A DNA stretch of 64,000 nt from Lachnospiraceae bacterium (GTDB lineage: Bacteria > Bacillota > Clostridia > Lachnospirales > Lachnospiraceae). The stretch is taken from contig SVEC01000001.1 in the NCBI GenBank assembly GCA_015057555.1, positions 186,001 through 250,000 of the forward strand, read 5' to 3'. A model generated the notes under the pieces. It was given only the letters and a program-made list of their open reading frames with translations, searched no databases and was not told the origin of the DNA. The first letter of the stretch is position 1; each line of letters starts with the position of its first letter. The position numbers and the translations under genes were made by a program. Positions 1,296 through 47,729 of this stretch are shown piece by piece.

Positions 1296-3371
1296 ATGGC
1301 AGTTAAAAAGGGTAAGAATGAAAAAAAAGACAAGAAGCTTACGCCTTTGATGAAAAATAAGCTTCTTTTTGCATTTGTGGTCATTATGGCCGTATTTTTA
1401 TTTTTGGTAATTAGCTTGGTGATGATAAATATCAAGTCCGGCAAGGAATATGAGCAGGTGGTGCTTGCTCAACAGGGCTCAAACAGTTCGCCAATTCCTT
1501 ATAGAAGAGGGGATATTTTAGATTCAAATGGAACAACTCTTGCTACAACTAAAAAAATATACAATCTTATTTTAGAACCTAAGAACATATTAGAGAAGGA
1601 TGAAAATAAAGAAGCTACTGTAGCCGCCTTGAAGAAATATTTTGGATTTACTGATACTGAGATAGCTGACCTTCTTGAAAATGAAAACTCTTATTACGAG
1701 ATAGCAAAGAAAAACTTAGAGTATGACCAGGTAAAACCTTTTAAGGATTTTTTAGAAACTGAGGAAGGCTATAAGGTTACAGGTGTACTGTTCGAGGAAA
1801 AGTACGAGAGAGTATATCCTAATAACGAGCTGGCATGTCATCTTATAGGCTATACCATAGGAACCAATGATGGCCAGGGCGGAATAGAGGGTGCCTATGA
1901 TGAGTATTTAAATGGTAGCAATGGCAGGGAATATACTTACATCAATGATGATAATAGTGTGGCTAAGTCCATAGAGGCACCAACCAATGGATACAACTTA
2001 GTGACAAGTATTGATAGTAACGTACAGGCTATAGTGCAGGAAAAGGTTGAAAACTATATGGCAACAGAAGGTGCTGCAAATGTATCAGTTCTGGTTATGG
2101 ATCCTAAAACCTGTAATATATTGGCACTATATAATTCTCATGGCTACAATCCTAACGATGCCTATGATATAGATGCAGTTAGATATCAGTTTAAGACTGA
2201 TGAGGAATTTGAGGATTTCAAGGAAAATGCAACTGACGAGGAGACGGTAGACGCTCTTGCTAAGGTTTGGAGAAACTTCGTGGTAAGTGATGTTTTCGAA
2301 CCAGGTTCAACATATAAAACATTTACAATAGCTGGTGCCCTTGAGGAAGCTGTTGTAGACGAAAATTACACTCATGTATGTGATGGTGGTGAACAGGTGG
2401 ATACATATTATATCCAGTGTCATATTGCTGGTTATGGTTCGGTACATGGAGAGTTAAATCTGTCAGGTGCCTTAGAAAATTCTTGCAATGATGTGCTTAT
2501 GGATATTGCAAAAAAAGAAGGTGCAACAACCTTTGATAAATATCAAAAGCTATTTGGCTTTGGTCAGGCGACAAATGTTGATATCCCTGGAGAACCAAGC
2601 GATGCAGATTTTGAAACTGTCATATATCACGAAGATACACTTAATGTTACCGAGCTTGCAACATCTTCCTTTGGTCAGGGTGTCTGTGTGTCTATGATAC
2701 AGCTTTGCACAGCATTTTGCTCTGTAATAAATGGTGGATATTACTATGAGCCAAGTGTGGTTCAAAGAATTGAAGATGAGGATGGAAATATTATAGATAA
2801 CTTGGAAAATGTTCTTGTTAGAAGAACAGTATCAAAGGAAACCTCTGACATTATGAGACAGCAACTCTTCATGGTTGTGGAGCAGGGAACAGGTAGAAAG
2901 GCGGCAGTAGAGGGCTACACCATAGGTGGAAAGACAGGTACTGCAGAGAAACTTCCTAGAGGAAATGGTAAATATATGATTTCTTTTATTGGCTTTGCAC
3001 CTGTTGAGGATCCACAGGTAGTAATTTATGTTGTGGTTGATGAGCCAAATACACCAGATCAATCTACAAGTGCTGCTTCGTCATATTTGTTTGCAGATAT
3101 TGCTGTTGAATTATTCCCGTATATGAATATTTACAAGAGTAATGATAATTTTGAGTTAGATCCATCTGAAGCACCTGATGAGGTGGCTACACCAATATAT
3201 GATGGTGAAGTGCCAAGTAATGATGTGGCAGGAGGAGAGGAAAATCCATATGTTTCAGAATCTGAAGAAGGAACAACAGAATCTACAGAAGAAACTGAGG
3301 AGAACTACGAAGAGGAATATTACGAAGAGGAATACTACGAAGAGGAATATTACGAAGAAGATTATTATTGA
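1296..3371 (+). CDS. ftsI: Class B penicillin-binding protein (FtsI/PBP2-type septal transpeptidase)
   Basis: A D,D-transpeptidase that cross-links peptidoglycan at the septum with FtsW. The 691 residues contain a basic cytoplasmic tail, one membrane anchor (about 22-45), a dimerisation domain starting with the PYRRGDILDSNG box, and a transpeptidase domain with all three motifs: S338-T-Y-K (catalytic serine), S396-C-N, and K546-T-G-T. The C-terminus is unusual: an acidic Thr/Glu/Ser linker followed by tandem Tyr-Glu-Glu-Glu-Tyr units ending in DYY, encoded by an imperfect 15-base tandem repeat (about 3304-3366). No PASTA domain is seen. The ATG at 1296 follows AAAGGTGG. FtsI is assigned by position after ftsL; it is paralogous to the next gene. 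Confidence 0.88.
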   Translation: MAVKKGKNEKKDKKLTPLMKNKLLFAFVVIMAVFLFLVISLVMINIKSGKEYEQVVLAQQGSNSSPIPYRRGDILDSNGTTLATTKKIYNLILEPKNILEKDENKEATVAALKKYFGFTDTEIADLLENENSYYEIAKKNLEYDQVKPFKDFLETEEGYKVTGVLFEEKYERVYPNNELACHLIGYTIGTNDGQGGIEGAYDEYLNGSNGREYTYINDDNSVAKSIEAPTNGYNLVTSIDSNVQAIVQEKVENYMATEGAANVSVLVMDPKTCNILALYNSHGYNPNDAYDIDAVRYQFKTDEEFEDFKENATDEETVDALAKVWRNFVVSDVFEPGSTYKTFTIAGALEEAVVDENYTHVCDGGEQVDTYYIQCHIAGYGSVHGELNLSGALENSCNDVLMDIAKKEGATTFDKYQKLFGFGQATNVDIPGEPSDADFETVIYHEDTLNVTELATSSFGQGVCVSMIQLCTAFCSVINGGYYYEPSVVQRIEDEDGNIIDNLENVLVRRTVSKETSDIMRQQLFMVVEQGTGRKAAVEGYTIGGKTGTAEKLPRGNGKYMISFIGFAPVEDPQVVIYVVVDEPNTPDQSTSAASSYLFADIAVELFPYMNIYKSNDNFELDPSEAPDEVATPIYDGEVPSNDVAGGEENPYVSESEEGTTESTEETEENYEEEYYEEEYYEEEYYEEDYY
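3304..3366 (+). repeat. 15-bp coding tandem repeat at the 3' end of the PBP gene
   Basis: About four imperfect copies of TAC GAA GAG GAA TAT, differing mainly at synonymous positions, encode the Tyr/Glu tail of the penicillin-binding protein. Because the unit is a multiple of three, gain or loss of copies would change tail length without breaking the frame. Confidence 0.85.
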
Positions 3372-6258: not shown

Positions 6259-7623
6259 ATGTTAGATAAAAAAGTTTTAGTGGCCGGATGCGGAAAAAGC
6301 GGAATATGTGCCACAGAATTATTGATAAATAAAGGTCAAGAGGTAATCCTCTTTGATGAGAATAAGAAAAATAATTTAACAGAGGCCAAGGTTAGAGAAA
6401 ATCTTAAAGCTGTAGGAAAAAGTGATAAGCTTAAGATTATATTAGGTCAACTAACTGAGGATATTTTAGAACAGATATCTGTTATGGTTATTAGCCCGGG
6501 TATTCCAACTGATTTGCCGTTTGTAATGTCAGTTAGGGAGAAGCATATTCCTGTATGGAGCGAGATTGAACTTGCCTACTACTATGAGAAGGGTACAGTT
6601 GTTGCCATTACAGGAACTAATGGAAAGACTACAACGACCTCATTAGTAGGAGAAATAATGAAGGCTCATAATCCTAAGAGCTTTGTAGTAGGAAATATAG
6701 GAATTCCTTATACTCAGCAGGTGGTTAAAACTGATGAGGATTCAGTTACCGTAGCAGAGGTTAGCAGCTTTCAGCTAGAAACCATAATTGATTTTAAGCC
6801 ACATGTATCAGCTATATTAAATATTACACCAGATCATCTGGATAGACATTATACCTTTGAAAATTACGCCACTTGTAAGGCAGATGTATCAAAAAATCAG
6901 AATAATGAGGATTATGTGGTAGTTAATTATGATGATCCTGAAACAATGAAGCTTGTTGATAAGCTTCCAGGAAATGTAGTTTACTTCAGTAGATTACAGG
7001 AACTAGACAAAGGCGTATTCGTAAAGGATGGAGCCATTGTAATATTTGATGGAAATTTTGAAATTAAGGTTCTCGATTTGTCAGATATAAAGATATTGGG
7101 TAACCATAATGTAGAAAATGTTTTGGCAGCAGTAGCAGTTACCTACTACATGGGAGTACCTGTGGAAACTATAGAGGCGGTAAGTACTAGCTTTATGGGT
7201 GTGCCTCATAGAATAGAGTATGTGAAAACTGTAAATGGTGTTGAATACTATAACGATTCTAAGGGTACAAATCCGGATGCAGCCATAAAGGGTATTCAAG
7301 CTATGAAGTCTGCAACCTATCTTATCGGAGGAGGGTATGATAAGAAATCCTCCTATATTGAATGGATAGATAGCTTTGAGGGCAAAGTAAAAAAATTAGT
7401 GCTTTTAGGTGAAACGGCTAAGGATATTAACGATGCAGCTAAGTCTAGAGGTTTTGTAGATACTGTGTTTGTTGAAAGTCTAGAGGAAGCAGTTAAATAT
7501 TGTCATCAACACGCAGAGGATGGGGAATGTGTTCTTCTTTCACCAGCTTGTGCCAGCTGGGGAATGTTCGATAATTACGAGCAAAGAGGAGATATGTTCA
7601 AGGAGTATGTTAACAAATTATAG
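6259..7623 (+). CDS. murD: UDP-N-acetylmuramoyl-L-alanine--D-glutamate ligase MurD
   Basis: ATP-dependent cytoplasmic ligase that adds D-glutamate to UDP-MurNAc-L-Ala. The 454 residues show the three Mur-ligase domains: an N-terminal Rossmann-type UDP-binding domain (AGCGKSG), the central ATPase with ITGTNGKTTTTS from about residue 116, NITPDHLDRH, and a C-terminal domain with NDSKGTNPDA and LLSPACASWGMFDNYEQRG. These are MurD hallmarks. A strong AGGAGG ribosome site precedes the ATG. It ends three bases before the minimal ftsW frame and is tightly coupled to it. Confidence 0.97.
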   Translation: MLDKKVLVAGCGKSGICATELLINKGQEVILFDENKKNNLTEAKVRENLKAVGKSDKLKIILGQLTEDILEQISVMVISPGIPTDLPFVMSVREKHIPVWSEIELAYYYEKGTVVAITGTNGKTTTTSLVGEIMKAHNPKSFVVGNIGIPYTQQVVKTDEDSVTVAEVSSFQLETIIDFKPHVSAILNITPDHLDRHYTFENYATCKADVSKNQNNEDYVVVNYDDPETMKLVDKLPGNVVYFSRLQELDKGVFVKDGAIVIFDGNFEIKVLDLSDIKILGNHNVENVLAAVAVTYYMGVPVETIEAVSTSFMGVPHRIEYVKTVNGVEYYNDSKGTNPDAAIKGIQAMKSATYLIGGGYDKKSSYIEWIDSFEGKVKKLVLLGETAKDINDAAKSRGFVDTVFVESLEEAVKYCHQHAEDGECVLLSPACASWGMFDNYEQRGDMFKEYVNKL

Positions 7624-7634
7624 GAGTGAAATTT

Positions 7635-8768
7635 GTGAGTAGTAATACTGATACAAATAAAAAACAAAAAGCATCATTTTTTCATTTTGATGAGGGATTT
7701 TTTGATTATCAAACCTTGTTTATATCAGTTGTTTTAGTTCTGTTTGGAATAATGATGATATATAGTGCCAGCTCATATAGAGCTGTTATGGAAGGAAATC
7801 CTGATTATTTCTATGCAAAAAAGCAGGCACTTATTGCTGCAGGTAGCATTCTTGCAATGTTTTTGGTTTCAGGAGTAAACTACAAAAAATATTATTATTT
7901 TGCAGTATACATAATAGGTATAGCTATAATCTTATGTGGCTGTGTATTTGTACTTGGTATTGCAAGCCACGGTGCGGTTAGATGGATTAATTTGGGCTTT
8001 GTAAAACTACAGCCATCGGAGCTCTTAAAGCCTGCTATTGCGGTATATATTGCAAAGGTATGTAGTAGTCATGCAAAATGGTTGAATGACTTTAAGAGTC
8101 TATCTAAGCTTATGATTCTTCCTCTCATAGGAATTGGCATAGTGGCAACAGAAAATTTAAGTACAGCTATTGTATGTTTTATGATTATTGTAGTAGTTGT
8201 GTTTGTTGCTGCAGATAATGTCAGACCAATTATTTTGTGGTTTTTATTGGCAGTAGTGGCAGGAATAGTTCTTATCTCAGCAGAGGGCTATAGAGGTGGA
8301 AGAATTGATGCTTGGCTTAATCCGGAGACCAGTGATAATGGTTATCAAACAATGCAGTCCCTGTATGCAATTGGTTCAGGTGGCTTATTTGGAAAGGGCC
8401 TGGGAAATAGTATTCAGAAGACAGGATTTCTTCCAGAGTCACATAATGATATGATTTTCTCTATTATTTGTGAGGAATTAGGTCTATTTGGTGGACTTGG
8501 TATAATTGCACTCTTTGTTATGCTTTTGTTTAGAATAAAGTATGTTGCCACCAATTCACCGAATAAATTTGCCAGCTACATGGTAATCGGTGTGATGGCT
8601 CAGATTGCAGTTCAGTTAATAATAAATGTAGGCGTTGTAACAAATACATTACCTCCTACTGGAGTAACGCTTCCGTTCATAAGCTACGGTGGTTCCTCCA
8701 TATTAGCGATGATGATAGAAATAGGTTTGGTTTTGTCGGTTTCTAGACAGCTTGAGCCTTATGAATAA
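7635..8768 (+). CDS. ftsW: SEDS-family lipid II polymerase FtsW (or SpoVE)
   Basis: Membrane glycan polymerase of the SEDS family that works with a class B PBP at the septum. About ten hydrophobic helices are visible, with the signatures GAVRWINLG, KLQPSELLKPA and, near the end, LPPTGVTLPFISYGGSS. The frame is open from a GTG at 7626, but AGGAG at 7622-7626 overlaps that codon; the GTG at 7635 is eight bases after the site and is the better start, giving 377 residues. In B. subtilis the equivalent gene in this cluster is spoVE. With two PBPs upstream and one SEDS gene here, the pairing is uncertain. Confidence 0.9.
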   Translation: MSSNTDTNKKQKASFFHFDEGFFDYQTLFISVVLVLFGIMMIYSASSYRAVMEGNPDYFYAKKQALIAAGSILAMFLVSGVNYKKYYYFAVYIIGIAIILCGCVFVLGIASHGAVRWINLGFVKLQPSELLKPAIAVYIAKVCSSHAKWLNDFKSLSKLMILPLIGIGIVATENLSTAIVCFMIIVVVVFVAADNVRPIILWFLLAVVAGIVLISAEGYRGGRIDAWLNPETSDNGYQTMQSLYAIGSGGLFGKGLGNSIQKTGFLPESHNDMIFSIICEELGLFGGLGIIALFVMLLFRIKYVATNSPNKFASYMVIGVMAQIAVQLIINVGVVTNTLPPTGVTLPFISYGGSSILAMMIEIGLVLSVSRQLEPYE

Positions 8769-46773: not shown

Positions 46774-47232
46774 ATGAATTTTGGCATTAAATTACTAGTT
46801 TTAGGGAAAATTAAAGAAGAATTCTATAGAAAAGCTTTAGAACAGTATTATGAAGCTATAAGCAAAAAACAGGATTTTCAAGTCGTTGAGCTTGCAGATG
46901 AGAGCATTCCCTCTAATCCTAGTCAGGTTGTTATTGATAGGATAAAGGCCAAGGAAGGAGATAAGCTTCTAGAATATATCAGAGGAAATGATTATGTGGT
47001 GACACTATGCATAGAAGGAAAAGTTACAGACCTGTCATCTATGAAAAAGCAGATAGATAAAGCAAGGGCGAATCAGTGTGACAATATTGTGTTCATAATT
47101 GGTGGATCTCTTGGTTTAGATAAAAGAGTTGTTGACAGAGCAAACTATAAGCTAAGCTTTTCTAATATGACATTTCCTCATCAGCTTATGAGAGTGATGC
47201 TGGCAGAACAAATACAAAAGGCGGTTGAATAA
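46774..47232 (+). CDS. rlmH: RlmH-family SPOUT methyltransferase, SAM-binding half, C-terminal tail missing
   Basis: RlmH methylates N3 of pseudouridine 1915 in 23S rRNA helix 69. This 152-residue protein aligns with RlmH from the start (LLVLGKIKEEFYRKAL) through the trefoil knot: FIIGGSLGLD (107-116, SAM loop), LSFSNMTFPHQLMR (127-140) and AEQIQKA. It then stops, where the family continues with a Tyr-Arg-Ala-Phe segment and ends in Tyr-His-Lys. About nine residues, including catalytic tail residues, are absent, and the YRA of the last helix is QKA. No frame downstream restores the tail; the stop lies in a terminator stem. AGGAG precedes the ATG. The opposite-strand neighbour has the missing tail. 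Confidence 0.9.
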   Translation: MNFGIKLLVLGKIKEEFYRKALEQYYEAISKKQDFQVVELADESIPSNPSQVVIDRIKAKEGDKLLEYIRGNDYVVTLCIEGKVTDLSSMKKQIDKARANQCDNIVFIIGGSLGLDKRVVDRANYKLSFSNMTFPHQLMRVMLAEQIQKAVE

Positions 47233-47256
47233 TTACAAAAATTCAAACCGCCTTTT
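47216..47256. terminator. Bidirectional terminator between the two RlmH-family genes
   Basis: AAAAGGCGGTT (47216-47226) pairs with AACCGCCTTTT (47246-47256); GAAT/ATTC extends the helix past a single bulged A. Stops of both convergent genes lie in or beside it, so the genes end only 22 bases apart. Confidence 0.9.
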
Positions 47257-47686
47257 ATTTGTGGTAGGTAATGTTGTTCATAATTGTGTATGCTCTATAT
47301 ATTTGTTCTGTAAGAACTACTGTAGTCAAATCAGGACTCATAGCAAAGGAGGATAAATTAAATTCGTCCACGTCCTTAGAAAAAGGGTGATTTGAAGCAT
47401 GTTTTTCGCCGTTTTCTTGCATAGATGTAATTATAAACTCTATGCAGGAAATTCCCTTTAGATTATTTGCCTGGATGATTGCTGCAAATCCTTCTGACGA
47501 TGGAGAGTTACTCCCAGGTAAAACATTATATATTTTAGAACCAGTTTTTGTATTAATCTTATCTAGCTTTTTGTAGGTTTTAATGATTACTTTGCAAAAC
47601 GGAGAGGTTCTTTTTACGTATTCATCTATGGCAAGCTGCATAGTCTTGTCTATTTTTTTTGTTTCAATATGAATTATAATTTCCAT
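47255..47686 (-). CDS. Divergent RlmH-family protein, tail-bearing half without the SAM loop
   Basis: A 143-residue protein that is clearly but distantly RlmH-like. N-terminus MEIIIHIETKKIDKTMQLAI and C-terminal half (FNLSSFAMSPD, VVLTEQIYRAYTIM, final YHK) follow the family. The family's IGGSxGL SAM loop is replaced by FIITSMQENGEKHA (84-97), with no glycine pair, and FPHQ is changed to SPDL. It should not bind SAM by itself, yet the last helix and Tyr-His-Lys tail are kept exactly where the plus-strand neighbour has lost them. An ATG at 47713 is in frame; the ATG at 47686, after AAAAGGA, matches family starts and is preferred. Confidence 0.75.
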   Translation of the reverse strand: MEIIIHIETKKIDKTMQLAIDEYVKRTSPFCKVIIKTYKKLDKINTKTGSKIYNVLPGSNSPSSEGFAAIIQANNLKGISCIEFIITSMQENGEKHASNHPFSKDVDEFNLSSFAMSPDLTTVVLTEQIYRAYTIMNNITYHK

Positions 47687-47711
47687 AACACTAAAAATCC
47701 TTTTATCGTAC

Positions 47712-47729
47712 ATTTTTTCTAGAAAAAAT
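47712..47729. promoter_or_regulatory. 18-bp perfect palindrome in the divergent gap
   Basis: ATTTTTTCTAGAAAAAAT is self-complementary over all 18 bases. It lies upstream of the minus-strand RlmH-like gene and 93 bp before the HAD gene. It could be an operator or a fortuitous A/T palindrome. Confidence 0.4.

Follow-up and report, generated by a model that had tools for sequence, protein, structure and literature searches.

The question raised by this locus is whether two neighbouring genes of the RlmH family, each lacking a different part of the enzyme, are remnants of decay or the two halves of one enzyme. The genes, here called A and B, lie in a window of 64,000 nucleotides from a Lachnospiraceae bacterium (contig SVEC01000001.1), to which all window positions refer. 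Gene A (46774..47232, plus strand) encodes a tail-less RlmH paralogue of 152 aa, the proposed SAM-binding subunit; gene B (47255..47713, minus strand) encodes a paralogue with a lost SAM pocket, of 152 aa as listed, the proposed catalytic-tail subunit. From the sequence comparisons we consider it very probable that a single RlmH, the 23S rRNA pseudouridine-1915 N3-methyltransferase, is built from A and B as its two subunits, which act as an obligate heterodimer with one active site. The split enzyme appears to be genus-wide but for seven genomes, and appears to have arisen at least once more in another genus. Its carriers appear to include gut bacteria and other anaerobes. That A and B physically dimerise, that the dimer is active and that its target is still pseudouridine 1915 is what we infer.

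The mechanism proposed for the pair derives from E. coli RlmH. In the accessible part of the study of Koh et al. (PMC5430550), the SAM site belongs to one monomer and the catalytic residues to the tail of its partner; the basic contacts K11, K42 and R43 come from the SAM monomer, and R25, R26, R142 and R154 from the other. Mutants of E138, Y152, H153 or R154 were inactive, yet dimerised and bound SAM, and the second SAM site of the dimer was empty below 500 uM SAM. A working site of the normal homodimer takes SAM from one monomer, and the tail (Tyr152, His153, Arg154, Arg142 and Glu138) plus basic RNA contacts from the other. In the pair, A would do the SAM job only and B the tail job only. 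An A/B heterodimer would have a single composite site, and A/A and B/B dimers would be inactive.

The anatomy of A is seen in its reading frame, the alignment and a residue-role table described below. The protein contains FIIGGSLGL and TFPHQLMR. Its SAM-loop (bight 2) codons for GGSLG, residues 110-114, lie at 47101..47115 (plus strand) and are invariant or nearly so in 23 aligned A sequences, and the FPHQ codons, residues 134-137, including the H129 equivalent, lie at 47173..47184 (plus strand). Its C-terminus, EQIQKAVE, is nine residues short of a canonical RlmH end such as EQIYRSYRIINGEPYHK (locus L003). B ends in EQIYRAYTIMNNITYHK and keeps EQIYRAYTIM and the final YHK. Its EQIYR codons (residues 136-140, with the E138 and R142 equivalents) lie at 47294..47308, and the terminal Tyr-His-Lys codons (equivalents of Y152, H153 and R154), read from the translation and the residue-role table, at 47258..47266, both on the minus strand. 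The glycine loop has become FIITSMQENGEKHA, a degenerate bight-2 region (residues 93-106; 47396..47437, minus strand) whose length varies among B relatives, and FPHQ has become SPDL. Judged from the alignment of relatives, the true start of B is probably the Met at codon 10 (~47686), which would give 143 aa. The stops of A and B are separated by 22 bases (47233-47254), and a terminator-like hairpin common to both genes spans this gap and both gene ends (47216..47256, no strand assigned). It folds at about -17 kcal/mol, with z scores of -5.50 and -5.58 on the two strands, and 0/200 shuffles were as stable. The initial annotation had described the complementary anatomy of the two proteins, the 22-base spacing and the shared terminator, and every one of these features is present as described.

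Both proteins are members of Pfam SPOUT_MTase (PF02590; A 135.1 bits, B 58.2 bits, cut-off 27), the same profile family as RlmH/YbeA/OrfX (COG1576; E. coli 1NS5 and 5TWJ; S. aureus 4FAK). Known RlmH is the product of one gene and forms a homodimer, whereas A and B place the two roles in two genes, each without the other's half. Neither protein reaches the cut-off of any NCBIfam RlmH equivalog model that it matches: the best scores are 158.1 (cut-off 172) and 119.2 (cut-off 149.7) for A, and 48.9 (cut-off 172) for B. With both halves in the window scoring this low, a genome of this kind can seem devoid of a very widely conserved rRNA methyltransferase. Taken as criteria of RlmH, the SAM bights, glycine-rich motif, T126 and H129 are found in the pair only, through A, and the series E138-R142-Y152-H153-R/K154 in the pair only, through B. 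No single polypeptide with both RlmH halves occurs in the draft genome or among the PF02590 matches of 59 B-bearing genomes. The residues of E. coli RlmH reported as essential in the accessible part of PMC5430550 are all carried between A and B.

The division of residues was tabulated by aligning 56 A partners, 58 B proteins and 88 sole-gene proteins to E. coli RlmH. The loci came from 143 genomes of our own choosing; a protein counted as an A partner if its genome also had B, whatever its motifs, and proteins under 118 aa were dropped, so the B fragment of genome G397 is absent. The HMM rule behind the table filed G325 as sole-gene despite its having both halves, giving 57 pairs against the 56 tabulated, and the 88 sole-gene proteins include the two of G325, two of G144 and the A-type protein of G155. 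On the SAM side, G107, T126 and H129 are each present in 56/56 A and 87/88 sole-gene proteins, and in 0, 6 and 1 of the 58 B proteins, respectively; G103 and G104 are likewise in 56/56 A, with G104 in 10/58 B. On the tail side, each residue of the E138-R142-Y152-H153-R/K154 series is present in 57-58 of the 58 B proteins. R142 is found in 58/58 B, 10/56 A and 88/88 sole-gene proteins, Y152 in 58/58, 0/56 and 86/88, H153 in 58/58, 1/56 and 84/88, and the R154 equivalent (R/K) in 58/58 B and 1/56 A. Position 26 is Lys or Arg in 58/58 B, 21/56 A and 88/88 sole-gene proteins. No replacement tail was seen in A, whose new C-terminal ends are short and differ between species.

Three observations go against a clean split of roles: position 103 is Gly or Ala in 21/58 B proteins, E138 is kept in 50/56 A although it works with R142 of the tail, and the SAM-monomer positions 42 and 43 fail to discriminate. 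These two positions are basic in 20/56 and 0/56 A proteins and in 60/88 and 1/88 sole-gene proteins. This part of the role test says little because position 43 is basic in only that one sole-gene protein; the segment around 42 and 43 is missing from B. Three dimer-contact positions are hydrophobic in both partners (L122 in 56/56 A and 58/58 B, L125 in 56/56 and 52/58, L127 in 56/56 and 54/58), and a fourth, position 74, is hydrophobic in 56/56 A, 3/58 B and 83/88 sole-gene proteins. The pattern of retention largely fits the published two-subunit active site (PMC5430550).

A heterodimer replacing RlmH raises the question of whether a complete gene is hidden elsewhere, and this was ruled out by the genome search here and by PF02590 searches of other pair genomes. 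The window's assembly, a draft that is 87% complete, has only two PF02590 genes, A and B, and no other RlmH. No complete rlmH was found in four pair genomes that are each on one contig, G018 of the same genus and G057, G072 and G153 of other families, where there are only the two halves. Within the genus, 30 of 37 genomes have both halves, five have a single canonical gene (193-208 bits) and neither half, and two, which are 79% and 64% complete, have no PF02590 gene. Since the same pattern recurs in 30 of the 37, the two-gene pattern is not chance.

Beyond the genus, the search brought the B-bearing genomes found to at least 59; a tail-less A accompanies B in 57 of the 59 and a canonical gene was seen in none. 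These counts are lower bounds, the single-match genomes of the order and class samples having been partly read, and in the class sample B genes below 106 bits against the B-relative profile (A1) may be missed. The order sample (216 genomes) has at least 12 B carriers besides the window's own, 11 of them with a tail-less A (G039, G045 and G057 among them). The class sample (393 genomes, top matches read) has at least nine further carriers, eight with a tail-less A, the ninth being G397. Named B loci led to eight more genomes, all with a tail-less A: Youngiibacter fragilis, Anaerostipes sp. MSJ-23, Candidatus Scybalomonas and five other MAGs. There are three exceptions: G103, a 98% complete draft, has B without A; G397 has no more than a fragment of B, located where its contig stops; and G155, 92% complete, has a tail-less type A (L183 1492-1953, plus strand) and no B detected. 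When 35 genomes with a weak or no match were checked, 16 had a match and none had a pair; the frame is broken in G369, and part of the sequence is degenerate in G326. Some candidates were reassigned: G403, ranked near B in the class sample, was canonical on reading, and L049 and L096, classed as B by motif, were placed among canonical sequences in the tree. The two checks proposed at the outset, for a complete rlmH elsewhere and for co-occurrence of the two families, did not refute the pair, with these three exceptions to co-occurrence.

A few observations on gene copies and absences were made along the way. G005 has a second B gene (L056 1039-1467, plus strand) on a 4.4-kb contig, 75% identical to the window's B as against 66% for the genome's own B, possibly from a strain mixture. 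In the same order, G062 (L186) carries an additional copy of rlmH that is interrupted by a stop codon, and in G151 (L185/L194) rlmH is broken into pieces. In family f5, 15 of the 19 members listed, all at least 90% complete, are without a PF02590 match.

A rival reading is that A and B are two half-dead genes, the decaying remnants of a duplicated rlmH. It accords with the fact that each protein alone is without residues essential in E. coli RlmH, and with B being very variable outside its core. Selection was estimated by the Nei-Gojobori method for 20 pairs of close relatives, with 2 codons at the start and 12 at the end of each alignment excluded. The median dN/dS is 0.108 for A (maximum 0.191; 17/20 pairs usable) and 0.145 for B (maximum 0.278; 16/20 usable), values well below 1 that contradict pseudogene decay; the relaxed substitution that the initial annotation had named as a danger to its case is not seen in B, which is under purifying selection. 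Both frames are open in 30/30 pair genomes of the genus, the tail residues of B are conserved 58/58, and the pair is present in many families and in the four one-contig genomes. We give decay hardly any chance. The case for a heterodimer stands on the sequence anatomy, complementary residue loss, co-occurrence, the lack of a canonical RlmH, purifying selection and the Lutispora split described below, the dimer itself being predicted.

A heterodimer could also have formed and taken up a new substrate, either a tRNA or a different site in rRNA, with the RlmH function lost. The basic residues at 42/43 are mostly lost in A, the surrounding segment is missing in B, and the activity of the pair is a prediction, all of which would suit such a change. 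Of 11 pair genomes searched for a 28-base conserved segment of 23S rRNA, which we take to include helix 69, 6 have it unchanged and the other 5, the window's draft among them, gave no match. Conservation of the segment in those six genomes, given that presumed identity, speaks against a new substrate, as does the finding that 0/59 B-bearing genomes showed a canonical RlmH, which is expected if the pair replaces RlmH. We therefore think a changed substrate improbable. RluA-family pseudouridine synthases are present in 5/5 pair genomes examined, an assignment at family level that does not distinguish RluD.

The arrangement of the two genes is stable in the genus and variable outside it. Within the genus, all pair genomes but one (29 of 30) have the genes convergent on a single contig; in G030 the halves are on two contigs. 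The convergent frames overlap in 16/29. The overlap is exactly 17 bases in 10/29 (L013, L017-L020, L024, L025, L027, L029 and L031), compared with the 22-base separation in the window. Gene order around the pair is common to five named MAG contigs, L064 to L068 (L062 is from the same genome as L064), and at the canonical loci L060 (8 kb) and L061 (14 kb) no window gene except A was matched. Elsewhere the genes are in tandem in G380, where the listed frames overlap, and in tandem also in G315, G546 and G488; 4 to 46 kb apart on one strand in Anaerostipes, G452, G325 and G280; 14 kb apart on opposite strands in G045; and ~2.3 Mb apart on one contig in G057. The tail-to-tail placement to which the initial annotation pointed is characteristic of this genus and some others and does not define the system, since elsewhere the two are in tandem, kilobases apart or ~2.3 Mb apart.

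In a tree of 84 rows, a single branch (SH-aLRT 99.9) separates the 43 B rows from all the others, and the B branches are long. The A rows are scattered in free trees, and a quick tree needs 7 changes. An AU test did not reject a single A clade (p 0.651), and the constrained tree scored even better, which undoes a reading of repeated tail loss directly off the tree. Because one A clade is not rejected, the co-occurrence does not amount to many proven independent events, and the case for repeated loss rests on a comparison of Lutispora saccharofermentans (G452) with G301 and G272.

These three belong to one genus. The A of G452 shares 83.3% identity with the intact RlmH of G301 and 82.7% with that of G272, and the gene order upstream of rlmH/A is common to all three. 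In G452, the reading frame of A closes immediately ahead of the YHK codons (...NMGER). Directly behind it, after a gap of 88 bases, comes a large serine recombinase of 704 aa (PF00239 + PF07508 + PF13408; L285 14255-16369, minus strand); type I restriction-modification genes come after the recombinase, and B is 13.8 kb from A on the same strand. In G301, rlmH still encodes the tail (PYHR), a recombinase of 697 aa that is 67% identical to that of G452 lies 70 bases behind it (L293 9657-11750, plus strand), and at the place of B only the start region of B survives. In G272 the 3' end of rlmH is uninterrupted, and the contig stops 118 bases further on. Within Lutispora, B is present with the tail lost in one genome, and absent or a remnant with the tail kept in two. 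The split here appears recent, the contrast being of one genome with two and implying no direction of change. In a sample of 22 genomes of the family, 14 had a match, and G452 alone had the pair.

The Lutispora comparison also bears on whether A might work alone, as a homodimer not needing a tail, with B recruited to another job such as a ribosome-binding factor. A is somewhat better conserved than B by dN/dS, it keeps E138 in most cases (50/56), and G155 has A with no B detected. Against this, tail mutants of E. coli RlmH are inactive in the accessible part of PMC5430550, tail-less A occurs with B in 57 genomes and without B in one, B conserves the tail-giving residues, and the contrast of Lutispora with G301 ties tail loss to B. 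A role for A alone seems to us about as improbable as a change of substrate, and we return to the heterodimer of A and B.

The B genes of G452 and of G325, which is in another family, are 92% identical in DNA over 460 bases, while the A proteins are only 57% identical; hence B moved between families recently. The DNA between A and B shows no match between these two genomes. B thus moved between families at least once, and on at least one occasion tail loss struck a resident RlmH inside a genus. With B also forming a single clade in the tree, one duplication followed by subfunctionalisation in place is too simple an account. As vehicles for B, phages and plasmids were considered and set aside: 21 phage and 16 plasmid protein records were all under 60% identity (best 40.3%), the protein matches being mostly of canonical length or annotated rlmH, with one weak viral contig, and no plasmid DNA match to B was found.

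In the accessible part of PMC6222049, staphylococcal and enterococcal cassette chromosomes (SCC and ECC) insert at the rlmH 3' region via large serine recombinases. G452 and G301 have, as SCC/ECC do, a large serine recombinase immediately behind the 3' end of rlmH, an SCC/ECC-like cassette in Clostridia. Two features set G452 apart from what the available text of PMC6222049 describes: its rlmH has no tail left in cis, and 14 kb further on it has B as an additional RlmH-like gene. The A of G325 likewise ends before YHK and is followed by nearly the same 40 bases as at G452. The left junction is common to G452, G301 and G325, only the left end of the element having been located, and B is not at the very end of the Lutispora element, the G301 homology running on past it. 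Related recombinases also adjoin canonical rlmH at L041 (G042; 1464-2888, minus strand) and L126 (Bacillus kwashiorkori; 6424-8124, minus strand).

A serine-recombinase element as the general cause of the split was rejected: a scan of proteins encoded between the two genes showed none in G325, G045 or Anaerostipes; similarity searches of the loci of these genomes found no recombinase, and nothing like the Lutispora type was found among the ORFs of the window or of the genus loci searched. A cassette origin of the split is supported in one genus and is put forward as a hypothesis for the others. We tentatively suggest, as a possibility rather short of probable, that B is a mobile trans-complementing subunit: insertion of the element would cut the rlmH tail, B would restore the tail in trans, and the host would become dependent on it, the pair in the window being a domesticated relic in which only A and B are left. 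If that were true, the split enzyme would be the addiction outcome of a cassette inserting into a housekeeping gene.

There are precedents for the change in symmetry. As far as the accessible part of PMC10570016 goes, the mitochondrial SerRS of animals went from homodimer to heterodimer by loss of different parts; the resulting metazoan SerRS2-alpha/SLIMP heterodimer is an animal tRNA synthetase, whereas A/B is a SPOUT methyltransferase. The trypanosome mt-LAF5/6 (PMC12123411) is a SPOUT heterodimer on the large ribosomal subunit, like the proposed A/B; in the accessible part of that source it is there only within a mitoribosomal assembly intermediate, and a split SAM site and tail are absent from the description. 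A literature search of open-licence full texts turned up no description of RlmH as split or heterodimeric. In the accessible text of the SPOUT review PMC9508554 the word heterodimer does not occur (0 times), and in that of PMC1829167 it is used in two places.

If the heterodimer is right, nature repeats the mutational dissection of the RlmH structure paper, with the SAM role and the catalytic-tail role in separate genes, and the single-site function of a small knotted dimer becomes directly testable. The pair would then show a route from a homodimer with composite sites to an obligate heterodimer, with a recent case in Lutispora against its sister genomes and older cases that include the genus of the window.
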